DNA of 34,514 nt, taken from positions 136,845 to 171,358 of the forward strand of contig JAAHFP010000014.1 of the NCBI GenBank assembly GCA_010672925.1, written 5' to 3'. Shown here one piece after another: positions 26,916 through 31,968 of the stretch (positions are counted from its first letter, which is position 1; each line of letters begins with the position of its first letter). The DNA comes from Symploca sp. SIO1C2 (GTDB lineage Bacteria > Cyanobacteriota > Cyanobacteriia > Cyanobacteriales > Coleofasciculaceae). The notes beneath the pieces were generated by a model that saw only the letters and a program-made list of their open reading frames with translations, was not told where the DNA came from and did not search any database. A program made the position numbers and the translations under genes.

Positions 26916-27809
26916 ATGAAAGTTTTCCGCGTTTTACAAGTTTCTGTGATTCAGGTGAGCAAATCTCCCCTGGTGTTAAGTATTCGAGCAGAAGGACTCG
27001 CAGCAACTTCCGGTTGGACAAATCCTCGGTTAGACAATTCAGCAGATCCCAATCCGGATGATTCTGTCCTAGAATTCAGTTTCGATGCTGACAAACCATC
27101 CGGTATTAGTCTGCCACAATTGACGCCAATCATGGCTTGTATTGACTTTGAACCAACTAATGGTGCTGATGCAGTAATTGTTTCTGCCCGAATAAATTCG
27201 ATTACTGTTCATGCTGCTGAGTTTATCAAGCCTGGGGAGCAAAGTTCTCAGCCAACGACAATGGCATTGGGAGAGGAAAGTCCTCAACAACCAACAACCA
27301 TGGCATATGGAGAGGAAGAACCTCAAGCAACAACCATGGCGTTAGGGGAGGAAGAACCTCGATTTACAACCCAGGCATTAGGGGAGGAAGAACCTCAACA
27401 ACCGACAACCATGGCGTTAGGAGAGGAAAGTCCTCAACAACCGACAACCATGGCATATGGAGAGGAAGAACCTCGATTTACAACCCAAGCATTGGGAGAA
27501 GAAGAACCTCAAGCGACGACAATGGCATTAGGAGAGGAAGAACCTCAACAACCAACGACAATGGCATTGGGAGAGGAAAGTCCTCAACCGACAACAAGGG
27601 CATATGGAGAAGAAGAACCTCAAGCGACAACCATGGCATTAGGAGAGGAAAGTCCCCAACAACCAACAACCATGGCATTGGGAGAGGAAAGTCCTCAACA
27701 AACTACCTATGCAATAGGAGAAGAAGAGCCAACGACAAAGGCATTGGGAGAGGAAGGTCCTACTACTATGGCTATTGGTGAAGAGGGTAGTCCATTTGGT
27801 CGATACTAA
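26916..27809 (+). CDS. Multi-core graspetide (omega-ester RiPP) precursor with 15 TTxAxGEE cores
   Basis: The 297-residue protein has two parts. Residues 1-113 form a beta-rich, folded-looking leader with a GWTNPRLD motif and no signal peptide. Residues 114-297 are 15 tandem units of 10-15 residues. Each begins with TT and reads TTxAxGEE, the variable positions being M/Q/R/Y/K and L/Y/I; linkers are mostly EPQA, EPRF or SPQQP. TTxxxxEE is the core consensus of plesiocin-type (group 2) graspetides, whose Thr side chains are joined to Glu side chains by an ATP-grasp ligase. Plesiocin has four cores. All 15 units keep both Thr and both Glu, strong evidence of selection. The stop overlaps the ligase start by one base. 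Function of the product is unknown; plesiocin is a protease inhibitor. Confidence 0.87.
   Translation: MKVFRVLQVSVIQVSKSPLVLSIRAEGLAATSGWTNPRLDNSADPNPDDSVLEFSFDADKPSGISLPQLTPIMACIDFEPTNGADAVIVSARINSITVHAAEFIKPGEQSSQPTTMALGEESPQQPTTMAYGEEEPQATTMALGEEEPRFTTQALGEEEPQQPTTMALGEESPQQPTTMAYGEEEPRFTTQALGEEEPQATTMALGEEEPQQPTTMALGEESPQPTTRAYGEEEPQATTMALGEESPQQPTTMALGEESPQQTTYAIGEEEPTTKALGEEGPTTMAIGEEGSPFGRY
27255..27806 (+). repeat. Tandem core-peptide repeats (15 units) in the graspetide precursor
   Basis: Units start at residues 114, 127, 139, 151, 164, 177, 189, 201, 214, 226, 238, 251, 263, 273 and 283. Unit length is mostly 36-39 bases. Units 2-5 and 6-9 share a similar order of variants (MAY, MAL/QAL, ending with an ESP unit), indicating block duplication. 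Synonymous differences among units show they are not all recent. Confidence 0.92.
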
Positions 27810-28702
27810 TGGTTAACTTAGCAGATGGTGGATGTTTGCTGGTTGCAGGTGGGGAGTTAGATCCGAATTTAACTCGGTTGATAGAAATTGCTCAACGGCA
27901 ACAAGTTTCTGTTTGTGATTTACGCTATGGGCAAGAAGTAAGTCCCAGATTTTCCTGGCATCTTACTCAAGAGCAACCCAGAGTTGGATCTCAAAATCTG
28001 TCGGCAACCGGAGCATTTATTCGGTATGACGTTTTTGGTAATCTGAAGACTAAAGCTGGGGCATCAAAACGTGCCCTGGGTTGGTATCAAACTCTGTATG
28101 GTTGGTTGCTCTCCCAGAGTCAGATCCGCTTGTTTAATCGTCACCAGCTACCTGCAGTTGGCAATAAGCCAGCCATGCTGATGTTAGCCCAAAAATTGGG
28201 TTTAGTTATTCCTGATACTTGGATTACCAATGAAGCAGAGGAGTTGGGGAAATATCCTGCTGGTAGTGCCATCGCTAAACCAGTGGCAGGGGGGGATTTT
28301 TGTTACTCATTAGAACAACTCCACTCCTCTGTGGAGTTTCGCAATGGTTGTGCTGCGATGCCAGCCATTGTCCAAAATCGATTAGTAGCGCCAGAGGTGC
28401 GGATTTATGTTGTGGGTGATCATGCTTTTGCTTTTGAAATCCGTAGCCAGCATCTCGATTATCGGGTTAAGCATGATGCACAAGTGATTCCTCTGGCAAC
28501 AATTCCGGCAGAAGTAGAGTTACTGCGCAAGTTAATGGCAACTCTAGGTATGGATTTTGGCGCTGCTGACTTCAAGACGGATCCAGATACTGAGCAACTG
28601 GTATTTTTGGAGTTGAATAGTTCCCCCATGTTTGTCAGGTTTGATCAAGTTTTAGATGGAGCATTATGTGAGGCGATGATTCAGACATTATTAACGGTTT
28701 AA
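27809..28702 (+). CDS. ATP-grasp ester ligase of the graspetide operon (MvdD/PsnB-like)
   Basis: The 297-residue protein is an ATP-grasp enzyme of the RiPP macrocyclase type. It shows FIRYDVFGNLKTKAGASKRA (about 70-89), the nucleotide-binding K157 with AGG at 160-162, and E196/R198 in APEVRIYVVG. The LDYRVKHD motif (216-223), typical of graspetide ligases, follows, then the metal-binding residues D254, E268 and N270 (FLELNSSPM). It would phosphorylate core Glu carboxylates and have core Thr hydroxyls attack them. It follows the precursor with a TAATG overlap, so synthesis is coupled. Glutathione-synthetase-like or lysine-linking relatives are the alternative, made unlikely by the neighbouring precursor. 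No second (amide-forming) ligase, acetyltransferase or exporter accompanies it. Confidence 0.88.
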   Translation: MVNLADGGCLLVAGGELDPNLTRLIEIAQRQQVSVCDLRYGQEVSPRFSWHLTQEQPRVGSQNLSATGAFIRYDVFGNLKTKAGASKRALGWYQTLYGWLLSQSQIRLFNRHQLPAVGNKPAMLMLAQKLGLVIPDTWITNEAEELGKYPAGSAIAKPVAGGDFCYSLEQLHSSVEFRNGCAAMPAIVQNRLVAPEVRIYVVGDHAFAFEIRSQHLDYRVKHDAQVIPLATIPAEVELLRKLMATLGMDFGAADFKTDPDTEQLVFLELNSSPMFVRFDQVLDGALCEAMIQTLLTV

Positions 28703-28776: not shown

Positions 28777-29022
28777 ATGGATGTGGTTATCCCCAAAGAC
28801 ATTGTTACAGCTACAAAGATGTCGGAAACACAAATAAAACTAGAAATTGCTATTATGCTCTATAAGCAGGAGAAAATTAGTAGCGGTAGAGCTTGTCAGT
28901 GGTTAGGAATGAATTTGATTGAGTTTCGCAGGGAACTGGGTCAACGAGGACTGACAATCAATTATGATGTTGAAGATTTTGAATCTGATCTCCAAACTCT
29001 AAGATCACTGGGCAGATTATGA
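28777..29022 (+). CDS. UPF0175 family antitoxin
   Basis: The 81-residue protein is preceded by an AGGAG site about nine bases before its ATG. It has the UPF0175 pattern: a polar beta-strand start, EIAIMLYKQEKISSGRACQWLGM (split here as a helix-turn-helix around residues 25-50), then EFRRELGQRGLTINYDVEDFE. The family binds DNA and neutralises the DUF3368 toxin encoded next. Its TGA overlaps the toxin ATG (ATGA). The unit most likely represses its own promoter, as usual in such modules. Confidence 0.88.
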   Translation: MDVVIPKDIVTATKMSETQIKLEIAIMLYKQEKISSGRACQWLGMNLIEFRRELGQRGLTINYDVEDFESDLQTLRSLGRL

Positions 29023-29504
29023 TTGTTGTAAGTGATACTTCACCCATCACCAGTCTGGCAGGCATAGGACGGTTGGAACTTTTGCAACAACTCTACAGCA
29101 TAGTTATTATTCCACAAGCTGTCTATGATGAAATGGTAAGAGTGGGGAAGGCTGTACCCGGAGCGCTTGAAGTTCAAACCTTTGCCTGGATAAAAACTCA
29201 GCAGGTTAGTGACTTTGATCGGGTTTCAGTACTTCAAGCAGATTTAGATCCAGGTGAGGCAGAAGCCATTATTTTGGCGATGGAACTCAATGCGGAGCTT
29301 TTACTCATGGATGAACGCTCTGGTAGAAATATCGCACTCAGCTATGGAATTAATGTTAGTGGTGTGTTGGGAGTCTTACTGGAGGCTAAGCGCAAGGGTT
29401 TGATTTCAGCAGTAAAGCCTCTGATGGATCAATTGATTAATGATGTTGAGTTTAGAGTCAGTAGTCAGCTATACACTATCATCTTACAGTCTGCGGGTGA
29501 GTAG
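29019..29504 (+). CDS. DUF3368 family PIN-like toxin
   Basis: The 161-residue protein has the DUF3368 arrangement of the PIN fold: D6 in VVSDTSPI, E38 in AVYDEM, E80 in LDPGEAEAI and D98/E99 in LLMDERSGR, followed by GVLGVLLEAKRKGLI. These acidic residues should coordinate Mg for RNA cleavage. It is coupled to the UPF0175 antitoxin by a 4-base overlap. The pair sits directly downstream of the graspetide ligase, 75 bases on. Whether it is co-transcribed with it is unknown. Confidence 0.87.
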   Translation: MIVVSDTSPITSLAGIGRLELLQQLYSIVIIPQAVYDEMVRVGKAVPGALEVQTFAWIKTQQVSDFDRVSVLQADLDPGEAEAIILAMELNAELLLMDERSGRNIALSYGINVSGVLGVLLEAKRKGLISAVKPLMDQLINDVEFRVSSQLYTIILQSAGE

Positions 29505-29520
29505 TTTGTGTGGATATTGG

Positions 29521-31968
29521 GTGAAAGCTTCCTTCCTTCTGCCCTCTTCCTTCTGCCTGCTTGTAACCCCTCTCGCTGTAGCATCAGAAATATTACTAGC
29601 CCAGTCACCCCCAACTGAGCTTCAAGATAACCTGCAAACCCAAGCCGACAGGTTACTCCAACAAGGAATTGAACAATATAAAGCTAGTCAATTGACTACA
29701 GCTATTGAATCCTGGCAACAAGCTTTAAACCTCTATCAGCAACTCCAAGATCAACAAAAAGAAGCATTAGTAACAGACTTTCTTGGACTAGTTCACCAAA
29801 AACTCGGTAATTATCACCAAGCAATTACTTACTATCAACAACTCCTAACTCTGGCTCGTCAAATTAAGAATCGCGAGTATGAAGCCAATGCTTTAGGGAA
29901 TTTGGGTAATAGTTACAGGGTTTTAGGAAAATACTCTCAGTCTCTAGAGTATCATCAGCAATCCTTAGCTATTCGTATTGAACTGCAAGATCGTAAGGGG
30001 GAGGGACAGGTATTAGCTAATATTGGCAATGTCCAGGCAATTTTAGGTAATGACCAACAAGCGATTAAACTACACTTAGAAAGTTTAGCGATCGCTAAAT
30101 CAGTGGGCAATGTTCGAGGAGTAGCTATTTCCCTCAACAGCTTAGGTGTGCTCTATGCTAATCGGGAAGATTATCAGCAAGCTACTCAATATTATCAGCA
30201 ATACTTGGCCATTGTCAGGAGAATCAACAATCGAGCCTCAGAAGGCAAGGCTCTCAATAATCTGGGCTCTATCTATCATATCCAAGGGGAAGTGGAAACA
30301 GCCTTGAGTTATTACCAAGAAAGTTTAGCCCTGGCTCAAACTATGAATGATTCCAGATTAGCTGCTGCTGCTTTAGGAGGTTTGGGATTAGTCTCTGCTA
30401 ATCAGGGGAATTACCCCCAAGCCATTGACTATCAAGAACAAAGCTGGGCGATCGCGCGGGAGATTGGTGATGGTAGAATGGAAGGGATTACTCTGCAAAA
30501 CCTCGCATATACTTTCTGGCTATCCGGCAATCTCCCTCAAGCCGAGGAAAAATTAAGAGCAGCCCTGGAGATTGTGGAATCTCTACGGCTTAATCTAGAA
30601 GATGCCGATAAAGTATCGATTTTTGATAATCATTGGCAAGTTCTTAACTACAAATTGCTGCAACAAATTCTGATTGCTCAAAATCAGCCGGAAGCAGCTT
30701 TGGCAGTGGCGGAGAGGGGAAGGACTCGCGCTTTTGTGGAATTATTAGCTCAGGGGTTATCTTTAGAATCCTTAGCTAAGCTGCGTACTGAATCCCAGCA
30801 AGTGAATATTGCGCCACCAACGATCGCCCAAATTCGTCAGATAGCTCAAGTACAAAACGCCACTATAGTTCAATATACCATTATTCCTGATGAAGAGTTT
30901 ATTGCTCAAGGCAAGTTAAAAGGAGCAGATTTAGAACTATTTATTTGGGTAATCCAGCCTTCAGGAAATATTGCCTTTCGTCGAGTGGCTCTTAATTCCC
31001 TAGATAAGCCCCTCAAAGACTTAGTTAATGCTAGCCGTCAAGCCATCGGTGTTAGAAGCCGTGCGACGATTCAAACTCAATTAACCACTGAGGTTAATCA
31101 AACTGAACGATTACAGCAATTGCATCAACTACTGATTGAACCAATTGCTGACTTGTTGCCTAAAGATCCAGAATCTAGGGTAATTTTTGTACCTCACCAA
31201 GAACTATTCCTGGTTCCCTTCCCGGCACTACAAGATATCTCTGGCAAGTACCTAATTGAAAAACACACAATCGTAACTTCTCCAGCAATTCAGATACTGG
31301 ATTTAACCCGCCAACAACGGCAGAGGTTGGAGGCACAGTACAGTAAACCGATTCTAGGGGAGGGAGTTTTAGTAGTAGGTAATCCTACCATGCCCGTGCT
31401 CAGAAATGGAGAGCAGGTTGAGCAACTAGTACCATTACTCGGTGCAGAAAGGGAAGCTTTAGCAATCGCGACTCTATTTAATACTAAAGCCCTGATTGGT
31501 GATGAAGCAACCAAAGTAGAGATTGTTGCCCAAATGCCTCAAGCGCGACTGATTCATCTAGCCACCCACGGGTTACTCGATGATATTAAAGATTTAGGCA
31601 TACCAGGAGCGATCGCGCTAGCCCCTTCAGTAGAAGATGAAGGCTTTCTCACGGCGAGGGAAATCTTGGATTTAAAGCTGAAGGCAGAGTTAGTGGTTTT
31701 GAGTGCCTGTGATACGGGACGGGGTAATATTACCGGAGATGGGGTGATAGGCTTATCTCGTTCCCTGATTGCAGCGGGAGTGCCCAGTGTGATCGTTTCT
31801 TTATGGGCAGTACCTGATGCTCCTACTGCTCTCCTGATGACGGAATTTTATCGCAATTTACAACAAAATCCTGACAAAGCCCAAGCTTTGCGCCTTGCTA
31901 TGTTACAAACCATGGAACAACATCCAGATCCTAGGGCATGGGCAGCTTTTACCCTGATTGGAGATTGA
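29521..31968 (+). CDS. Exported TPR-CHAT domain protein (caspase-like protease family)
   Basis: The frame is open from 29440, but the GTG at 29521 lies beyond the toxin gene and gives an immediate signal peptide (MKASFLLPSSFCLLV, ending near AVASE). The 815-residue protein has about seven TPR units of the TPR_12 kind (about 35-360). A CHAT domain (about 520-815) follows, with catalytic-type H683 in HLATHG and C730 in LSACDTGRG, then the typical SLWAVPD. CHAT domains are caspase-clan peptidases often regulated by attached TPRs. Known bacterial examples cleave specific partner proteins. The signal peptide implies action outside the cytoplasm. The substrate is unknown. Part of the signal-peptide DNA is a CCTTCTGCC-type repeat. 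Confidence 0.87.
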   Translation: MKASFLLPSSFCLLVTPLAVASEILLAQSPPTELQDNLQTQADRLLQQGIEQYKASQLTTAIESWQQALNLYQQLQDQQKEALVTDFLGLVHQKLGNYHQAITYYQQLLTLARQIKNREYEANALGNLGNSYRVLGKYSQSLEYHQQSLAIRIELQDRKGEGQVLANIGNVQAILGNDQQAIKLHLESLAIAKSVGNVRGVAISLNSLGVLYANREDYQQATQYYQQYLAIVRRINNRASEGKALNNLGSIYHIQGEVETALSYYQESLALAQTMNDSRLAAAALGGLGLVSANQGNYPQAIDYQEQSWAIAREIGDGRMEGITLQNLAYTFWLSGNLPQAEEKLRAALEIVESLRLNLEDADKVSIFDNHWQVLNYKLLQQILIAQNQPEAALAVAERGRTRAFVELLAQGLSLESLAKLRTESQQVNIAPPTIAQIRQIAQVQNATIVQYTIIPDEEFIAQGKLKGADLELFIWVIQPSGNIAFRRVALNSLDKPLKDLVNASRQAIGVRSRATIQTQLTTEVNQTERLQQLHQLLIEPIADLLPKDPESRVIFVPHQELFLVPFPALQDISGKYLIEKHTIVTSPAIQILDLTRQQRQRLEAQYSKPILGEGVLVVGNPTMPVLRNGEQVEQLVPLLGAEREALAIATLFNTKALIGDEATKVEIVAQMPQARLIHLATHGLLDDIKDLGIPGAIALAPSVEDEGFLTAREILDLKLKAELVVLSACDTGRGNITGDGVIGLSRSLIAAGVPSVIVSLWAVPDAPTALLMTEFYRNLQQNPDKAQALRLAMLQTMEQHPDPRAWAAFTLIGD

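Follow-up and report, generated by a model that had tools for sequence, protein, structure and literature searches.

A graspetide lineage found in three phyla may be directed in nature by a C-terminal follower, with the N-termini of its precursors freed and its arrays grown to 15–23 or more beads, a reading that we rate at about an even chance. Its representative in the window (the whole 34,514-nucleotide stretch of DNA that was analysed, from the filamentous cyanobacterium Symploca sp. SIO1C2) is a two-gene operon with the following features, in window coordinates:

26916..27809, + strand: precursor gene, 297 amino acids plus stop, ATG start (from the open reading frame and orthologous precursors)
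26916..27224, + strand: N-terminal domain, 103 amino acids, predicted to be almost all beta (from AlphaFold and dN/dS)
27225..27254, + strand: linker IKPGEQSSQP ahead of core 1 (from the sequence)
27255..27785, + strand: core array, 15 TTxAxGEE units with short Pro-rich spacers between them
Starts of units 1–8, + strand: 27255, 27294, 27330, 27366, 27405, 27444, 27480, 27516
Starts of units 9–15, + strand: 27555, 27591, 27627, 27666, 27702, 27732, 27762
27789..27806, + strand: C-terminal tail SPFGRY, the proposed follower (recognition element), from conservation in relatives
27809..28702, + strand: ATP-grasp ligase, 297 amino acids, ATG start, a predicted graspetide synthetase (from profiles, the PsnB match and the structural model)

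An earlier note on this DNA had described a 15-core precursor overlapping its ligase by one base, and both details were borne out: the precursor (26916–27809) and the ligase (27809–28702) share the A of TAATG, and the exact count of TTxAxGEE units is 15, with both Thr and both Glu in 15/15. That description captured the array and the ligase, but neither the folded domain at the N-terminus nor the conservation of the C-terminal tail. Orthologous precursors adjoin nine close cyanobacterial ligase records (L013–L020 and L022). A predicted ATP-grasp peptide macrocyclase gene beside the precursor, together with core Thr/Ser and Glu/Asp residues conserved in 15/15 window units, corresponds to the features of the graspetide class.

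To describe the array at the DNA level, we searched the 8.67-Mb assembly with a degenerate pattern for TTxAxGEE, which gave 15 forward and 0 reverse matches, all 15 of them in the array; the reversed pattern, taken as a control, gave 1 forward and 0 reverse matches. The units were then compared by pairwise codon differences, with 105 pairs per core position. Core positions 1, 2, 4, 6, 7 and 8 yielded 255 synonymous differences (62, 59, 38, 38, 44 and 14, respectively) and 0 nonsynonymous ones, and core positions 3 and 5 yielded 27 synonymous and 115 nonsynonymous differences, the residues found being M, Q, R, Y and K at x3 and L, Y and I at x5. Because the silent sites have diverged while the fixed positions carry no nonsynonymous change, the core Thr, Ala, Gly and Glu are under selection. 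The same count of 255 to 0 rules out recent duplication alone as the source of unit constancy.

The earlier note had held that homologues with freely varying Thr and Glu positions would speak against its reading, and comparison of relatives went the other way. Among the GE[ED]-anchored units of 16 precursors, TT was present in 181/197 and two hydroxyl residues in 193/197, so these positions do not vary freely, within the limits of an anchor that itself selects for Glu and leaves out degenerate units such as FTTQAQ and ATQGLGEQ in some orthologues. The 16 non-TT units were ten ST, two TS and one each of MT, DI, AT and IT; unit counts were made on stop-to-stop frames, and the single DI unit, from L027, precedes the likely start codon and is probably not a true unit. 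L078, whose precursor is identical to that of L020, was left out of the counts. Arrays of about 15 units are usual in the lineage of the window: TTxxxxE[ED] units number 10–16 in the close cyanobacterial group, 15 in L079 and at least 23 in L088, with 8 in L027, 3 in L028, 1 in L024 and 4 in the shortened precursor of Crocosphaera. In the latter (Crocosphaera watsonii WH 8501, L021:4983–6001), the frame breaks off right after a transposase-like ORF, as judged by eye; cores and tail are still present despite the shortening. The array of L088 (2409–3413, − strand), in a genome from the Acidobacteriota sample, includes many TTTAVGEE units with a third Thr. The L088 ligase pairs with the cyanobacterial L079 ligase at 100/100 in the tree, which suggests horizontal transfer.

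Both sequence and predicted fold class the ligase as an ATP-grasp peptide maturase. It matched the TIGR04187 profile at E 5.7e-22 (78 bits; cutoff, 350) and the MvdD and MvdC models far below their cutoffs, all of its NCBIfam matches lying far under the curated thresholds. Six PDB sequences were matched at E<=0.01, each a peptide macrocyclase or a near relative of one; the best solved relative by sequence was PsnB (E 5.5e-13), followed by CdnC (4.2e-08). The AlphaFold model of the ligase (pLDDT 84.6) retrieved PsnB (7drm) as the top Foldseek match (E 8.4e-18, TM 0.72), with the microviridin ligases AMdnB (2.0e-17) and MdnC (6.1e-17) close behind. Among the ligase residues invariant in 15 relatives are K157-P-V, G161-G162, D254, E268 and N270, which align with PsnB in the ATP-grasp half. 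An enzyme that forms no esters and instead extends the GEE side chains with residues such as glutamates, in the manner of RimK, would agree with the presence of RimK and LysX in the fold list and with a weak match to the RimK profile (E 6.6e-07). We consider this highly improbable, however, as the six PDB matches are macrocyclases or kin and outrank RimK and LysX in the fold comparison, and the Thr pair, which glutamylation does not need, is conserved along with the Glu pair. Searches of plasmids returned 17 records for the ligase, all below 60% identity and 9 of them annotated tgmB, and no match for the precursor; among viral contigs, the ligase found one stretch matching a pattern and no relative.

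The consensus of group 2 graspetides, the plesiocin group, is a tandem series of TTxxxxEE cores, and the window precursor has such a series. The PsnA2 chain 7drm_E, from a fragment of a plesiocin precursor, ends GGPYTTLAIGEE, and its first core, TTLAIGEE, fits the TTxAxGEE pattern (alignment E 0.15). This core, combined with PsnB as the best solved match of the ligase, makes plesiocin-like chemistry the best reading. The ligase would phosphorylate the Glu side chains of the cores, and attack by the core Thr hydroxyls would then close two nested omega-esters per TTxAxGEE unit, a number that we adopt by analogy with plesiocin, which has two esters per repeat (PMC12291112). With 15 units, the product could be a flexible chain of hairpin beads that holds as many as 30 esters, for a mass change of about −540 Da. 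On this analogy, the window cores very probably become ester cross-linked, and their connectivity is probably that of plesiocin-like hairpins. Neither the type of core nor the fold of the enzyme is new.

In the proposed product, the free positions x3 and x5 of each bead would set target specificity, which makes a polyvalent serine-protease inhibitor the most likely product; that it inhibits proteases at all is, by analogy, an evenly balanced proposition. Plesiocin inhibits serine proteases, with potency rising with motif number, and group 2 clusters often include an NHLM or C39 peptidase-transporter (PMC13097080). No such peptidase-transporter was found among the 24 window ORFs scanned with Pfam, which, like the length and regularity of the array and its folded end domain, would suit a structural or surface polymer in place of an inhibitor. 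We regard the polymer as a less likely outcome, given the activity of plesiocin and given that what varies is the pair of free loop positions in each bead.

The earlier note had called the operon plesiocin-type, and this description holds for the core pattern and the PsnB-like ligase. Membership of the group in the strict sense does not follow: the ligase belongs to a lineage separate from that of PsnB (whose own placement is unsure), and the window precursor has no short GG-type leader, a 103-residue beta-domain standing in its place. Plesiocin (PsnA2, PsnB) resembles the window operon in its tandem TTxAxGEE-type cores and single ATP-grasp ligase and differs from it in having four units rather than 15, a ligase of another lineage (with the PsnB row partial) and a GG leader, as well as in the peptidase-transporter that was not found within the window. 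Microviridin features were likewise absent, as the precursor lacks the PFFARFL leader motif and the ligase is not of MvdC/MvdD type, lying on a separate branch.

We found two kinds of cyanobacterial TTxAxGEE system, clade I and clade II, the window operon belonging to clade II. Relatives of the window operon occur in six other cyanobacterial genera, in Acidobacteriota and in Aquabacterium. Clade II orthologues of the ligase are 79–92% identical to it in Symploca, Moorena, Okeania, Oscillatoria and Trichodesmium, 60% in Crocosphaera and 46–53% in two Acidobacteriota and three Aquabacterium records, whereas clade I ligases are 26–35% identical. Clade II forms one side of a 100/100 branch in the tree without PsnB and of a 100/99 branch in the tree with PsnB, in which the bootstrap had not settled; in the latter, PsnB groups with clade I at 94/83, its row being partial and long-branched and its placement therefore unsure. 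A 99/95 branch sets clades I and II, as one group, apart from microviridin and TgmB-like ligases, which makes a common origin of TTxxxxEE ligases, followed by deep divergence, plausible. Clade II is sparse: it was present in 5/20 genomes of the window family, in 7/243 of the order, in 2/297 genomes sampled from the phylum to which L024 belongs (the L024 genome among them) and in 1/250 of a sample at family level around L027 (the L027 genome), and in a class sample of 388 genomes a ligase match better than E 1e-24 occurred in the window genome only. In 17 clade II neighbourhoods, no ORF cluster besides the precursor and ligase frames was present in more than 6/17.

Clade I systems (for example L033, L043 and L065) share with the window operon the TTxAxGEE core and an adjacent ATP-grasp ligase, but have an HPF-type leader, often with GG, TTxAxGEE-GG spacing, 1–11 cores and no FGx[FYW] tail. 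Across the 35 clade I loci examined, 25 contained 26 TTxxxxEE ORFs and 10 contained none; an HPF-type motif was present in the N-termini of 23/26 of these ORFs and an FGx[FYW] tail in 0/26. Three clade I loci, L029, L030 and L032, have long N-termini or spread cores, with 7–11 units in frames of 322–396 amino acids, where the other loci have short leaders.

Outside the cores, the last residues are the only element that we found common to all clade II precursors. Among the 16 precursors with a complete 3′ end, which amount to only about seven independent lineages, G-x-[YF] is conserved in 16/16, F-G in 15/16 and P-F-G-x-[YF] in 14/16. The tail reads PFGRY or PFGWY in cyanobacteria, PFGAY in L024, AFGSF in L027, PFGQF in L079, PFGGF in L088 and ALGSF, without the P and F of the motif, in L028. 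Since the earlier choice of precursors had been partly tail-based, the tail was recounted over all TTxxxxE[ED] ORFs at 19 loci with no tail filter; the only tail-less precursor was that of L025, a broken locus, and at L023 and L026 no precursor was seen in the locus DNA. Members of the close cyanobacterial group all spell P-F-G with the same codons (CCA TTT GGT), which overlap the region of the ligase start; within this group alone, a constraint on the protein is therefore inseparable from one on translation. Over the wider range, the P, F and G codons differ in L021, L024, L027, L079 and L088 and the precursor–ligase gap extends from −1 (window) to 150 bases (L079), indicating that the constraint acts on the protein. 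The 150-base gap of L079 and the other codons used in other phyla also rule out that the tail is kept merely by abutting the ligase start.

L079 and L088 were found after the idea of a follower had formed, and both of these divergent loci (2/2) fit the tail motif. Their ligases are far more divergent than the rest (E 5.5e-89 and 6.5e-87, compared with about 1e-165), and only MSKSM in L079 and MAEKKSKPPA in L088 precede the first core-like unit, leaving no room for a usual leader. A C-terminal element that is conserved while N-termini turn over is the pattern of follower RiPPs. We therefore propose, from this pattern of conservation, that the P-F-G-x-aromatic tail may act as a follower that recruits the ligase instead of an N-terminal leader, which would leave the N-terminus free and, in the window, bearing a folded beta-domain. 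In about half of graspetide precursors, the leader motif consists of a Pro, two hydrophobics and a nearby aromatic (Makarova et al., PMC8939145), and in the ThfB synthetase system RPFG is the key recognition segment, the leader still working at about half the rate when relocated to the C-terminus (Johnson et al., PMC13003496). The TgmA proteins compared carry RPWALR or RPWGLR. By this analogy, the P-F-G-x-aromatic C-terminus would most simply be a recognition element relocated in nature. We lean slightly towards recognition of the tail by the ligase, and place ester cross-linking and follower direction, taken together, at the midpoint between likely and unlikely.

The same esters could arise if the ligase read the cores directly and needed neither end of the precursor, with the tail serving translational coupling, export or a stable C-terminus. 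Such a scheme accords with the near absence of residues ahead of the first core in L079 and L088 and with window tail codons that abut the ligase start codon; yet the tail persists in L079, where the ligase follows about 150 bases on, and is written in other codons elsewhere, and it resembles the leader motifs of other graspetides. We consider direct core recognition doubtful.

The follower reading also has to accommodate the N-terminal domain. AlphaFold modelled it with a pLDDT of 79.2 and a pTM of 0.71 (112 residues modelled), and it is under purifying selection, with dN of 0.020–0.131 against dS of 0.277–0.755 for seven orthologues. It gave no Pfam match and no Foldseek match at E<=0.001, and the best hit of its profile against PDB sequences had an E of 0.2. 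Our guess is that this beta-domain may anchor, carry or protect the chain, as an anchor, carrier or cap. A second route to the same esters would make the folded domain the leader that recruits the ligase and assign the tail to export, processing or protection. In the close group the domain is conserved at 83–99 of 103 residues, on par with the ligase, its invariant Pro, in SPLVLS, is a loose match to the Pro-hydrophobic leader motif described in print, and folded leaders are known from other RiPP classes (PMC13003496). Across clade II, however, N-termini range from a folded beta-domain through a short stub to hardly any residues at all, and the domain is missing from the precursors of L024, L027, L028, L079 and L088, the ligases of which fall in the same clade. 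Furthermore, nine relatives of the domain lie in other cyanobacterial loci (about 3.2 kb), in core-less frames with no TTxxxxE[ED] frame in the locus, and the ligase search of the same class sample of 388 genomes gave no match in three of the genomes concerned (G088, G317 and G034). We thus judge a leader role of the domain to be unlikely. The short N-terminus of L024 includes TPFAEQ, which, with the invariant Pro of the beta-domain, leaves room for an N-terminal recognition signal; the Aquabacterium leaders, AEHVAGA or AEQVTGA, resemble the end of a GG leader without the PF part. At L097, L098 and L101, frames of 204–220 amino acids contain a relative of the beta-domain and no cores, and L101 sits in a genome (G403) that also bears a clade II operon.

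The follower proposed here has counterparts in an engineered and in an unrelated natural system. In fuscimiditide (ThfA, ThfB), RPFG acts from the C-terminus after an engineered move of the leader, although that arrangement is artificial and involves another core type and another ligase (PMC13003496); in bottromycin, a C-terminal follower replaces the leader in nature, with unrelated chemistry and enzymes (PMC10885120). Multicore microviridin AMdnA/AMdnC likewise combines one ATP-grasp ligase with several cores per chain, but has three cores, of microviridin type, and is leader-guided (PMC5934393). Graspetide groups 34 and 35, which we compared by description only, have long repetitive precursors, and group 35 consists of synthetase and precursor alone, as the window operon does (PMC13097080); with such precursors in print, the 15-unit array alone is a modest extension. 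The available text of PMC10885120 names no natural graspetide follower. We found neither a natural C-terminal recognition element nor a leader-replacing folded domain for graspetides in the literature searched, where the strings TTxAxGEE, TTLALGEE, TTMALGEE, TTLAIGEE, TTxxxxEE and TTxxxxxEE had no mention either; an earlier listing of these precursors elsewhere is possible. If the follower reading is correct, the move from leader to follower described in 2026 for an engineered system already exists in nature, and a short C-terminal tag could direct the macrocyclization of very long arrays with the N-terminus free for any domain, which would be useful for polyvalent inhibitors and ester-stapled materials. 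Substrate recognition by graspetide synthetases, with one enzyme acting on 15 or more sites per chain, would become testable.

Downstream of the operon, at 28777–29504 of the window, lie two small overlapping ORFs that match UPF0175 (E 6.2e-23) and DUF3368/PIN-like (E 1.2e-15) and that resemble an antitoxin–toxin pair, probably unrelated to the operon. They are followed at 29440–31968 by an ORF with TPR repeats and a CHAT (caspase-like) domain (E 6.3e-70), the start of which lies inside the PIN-like gene.
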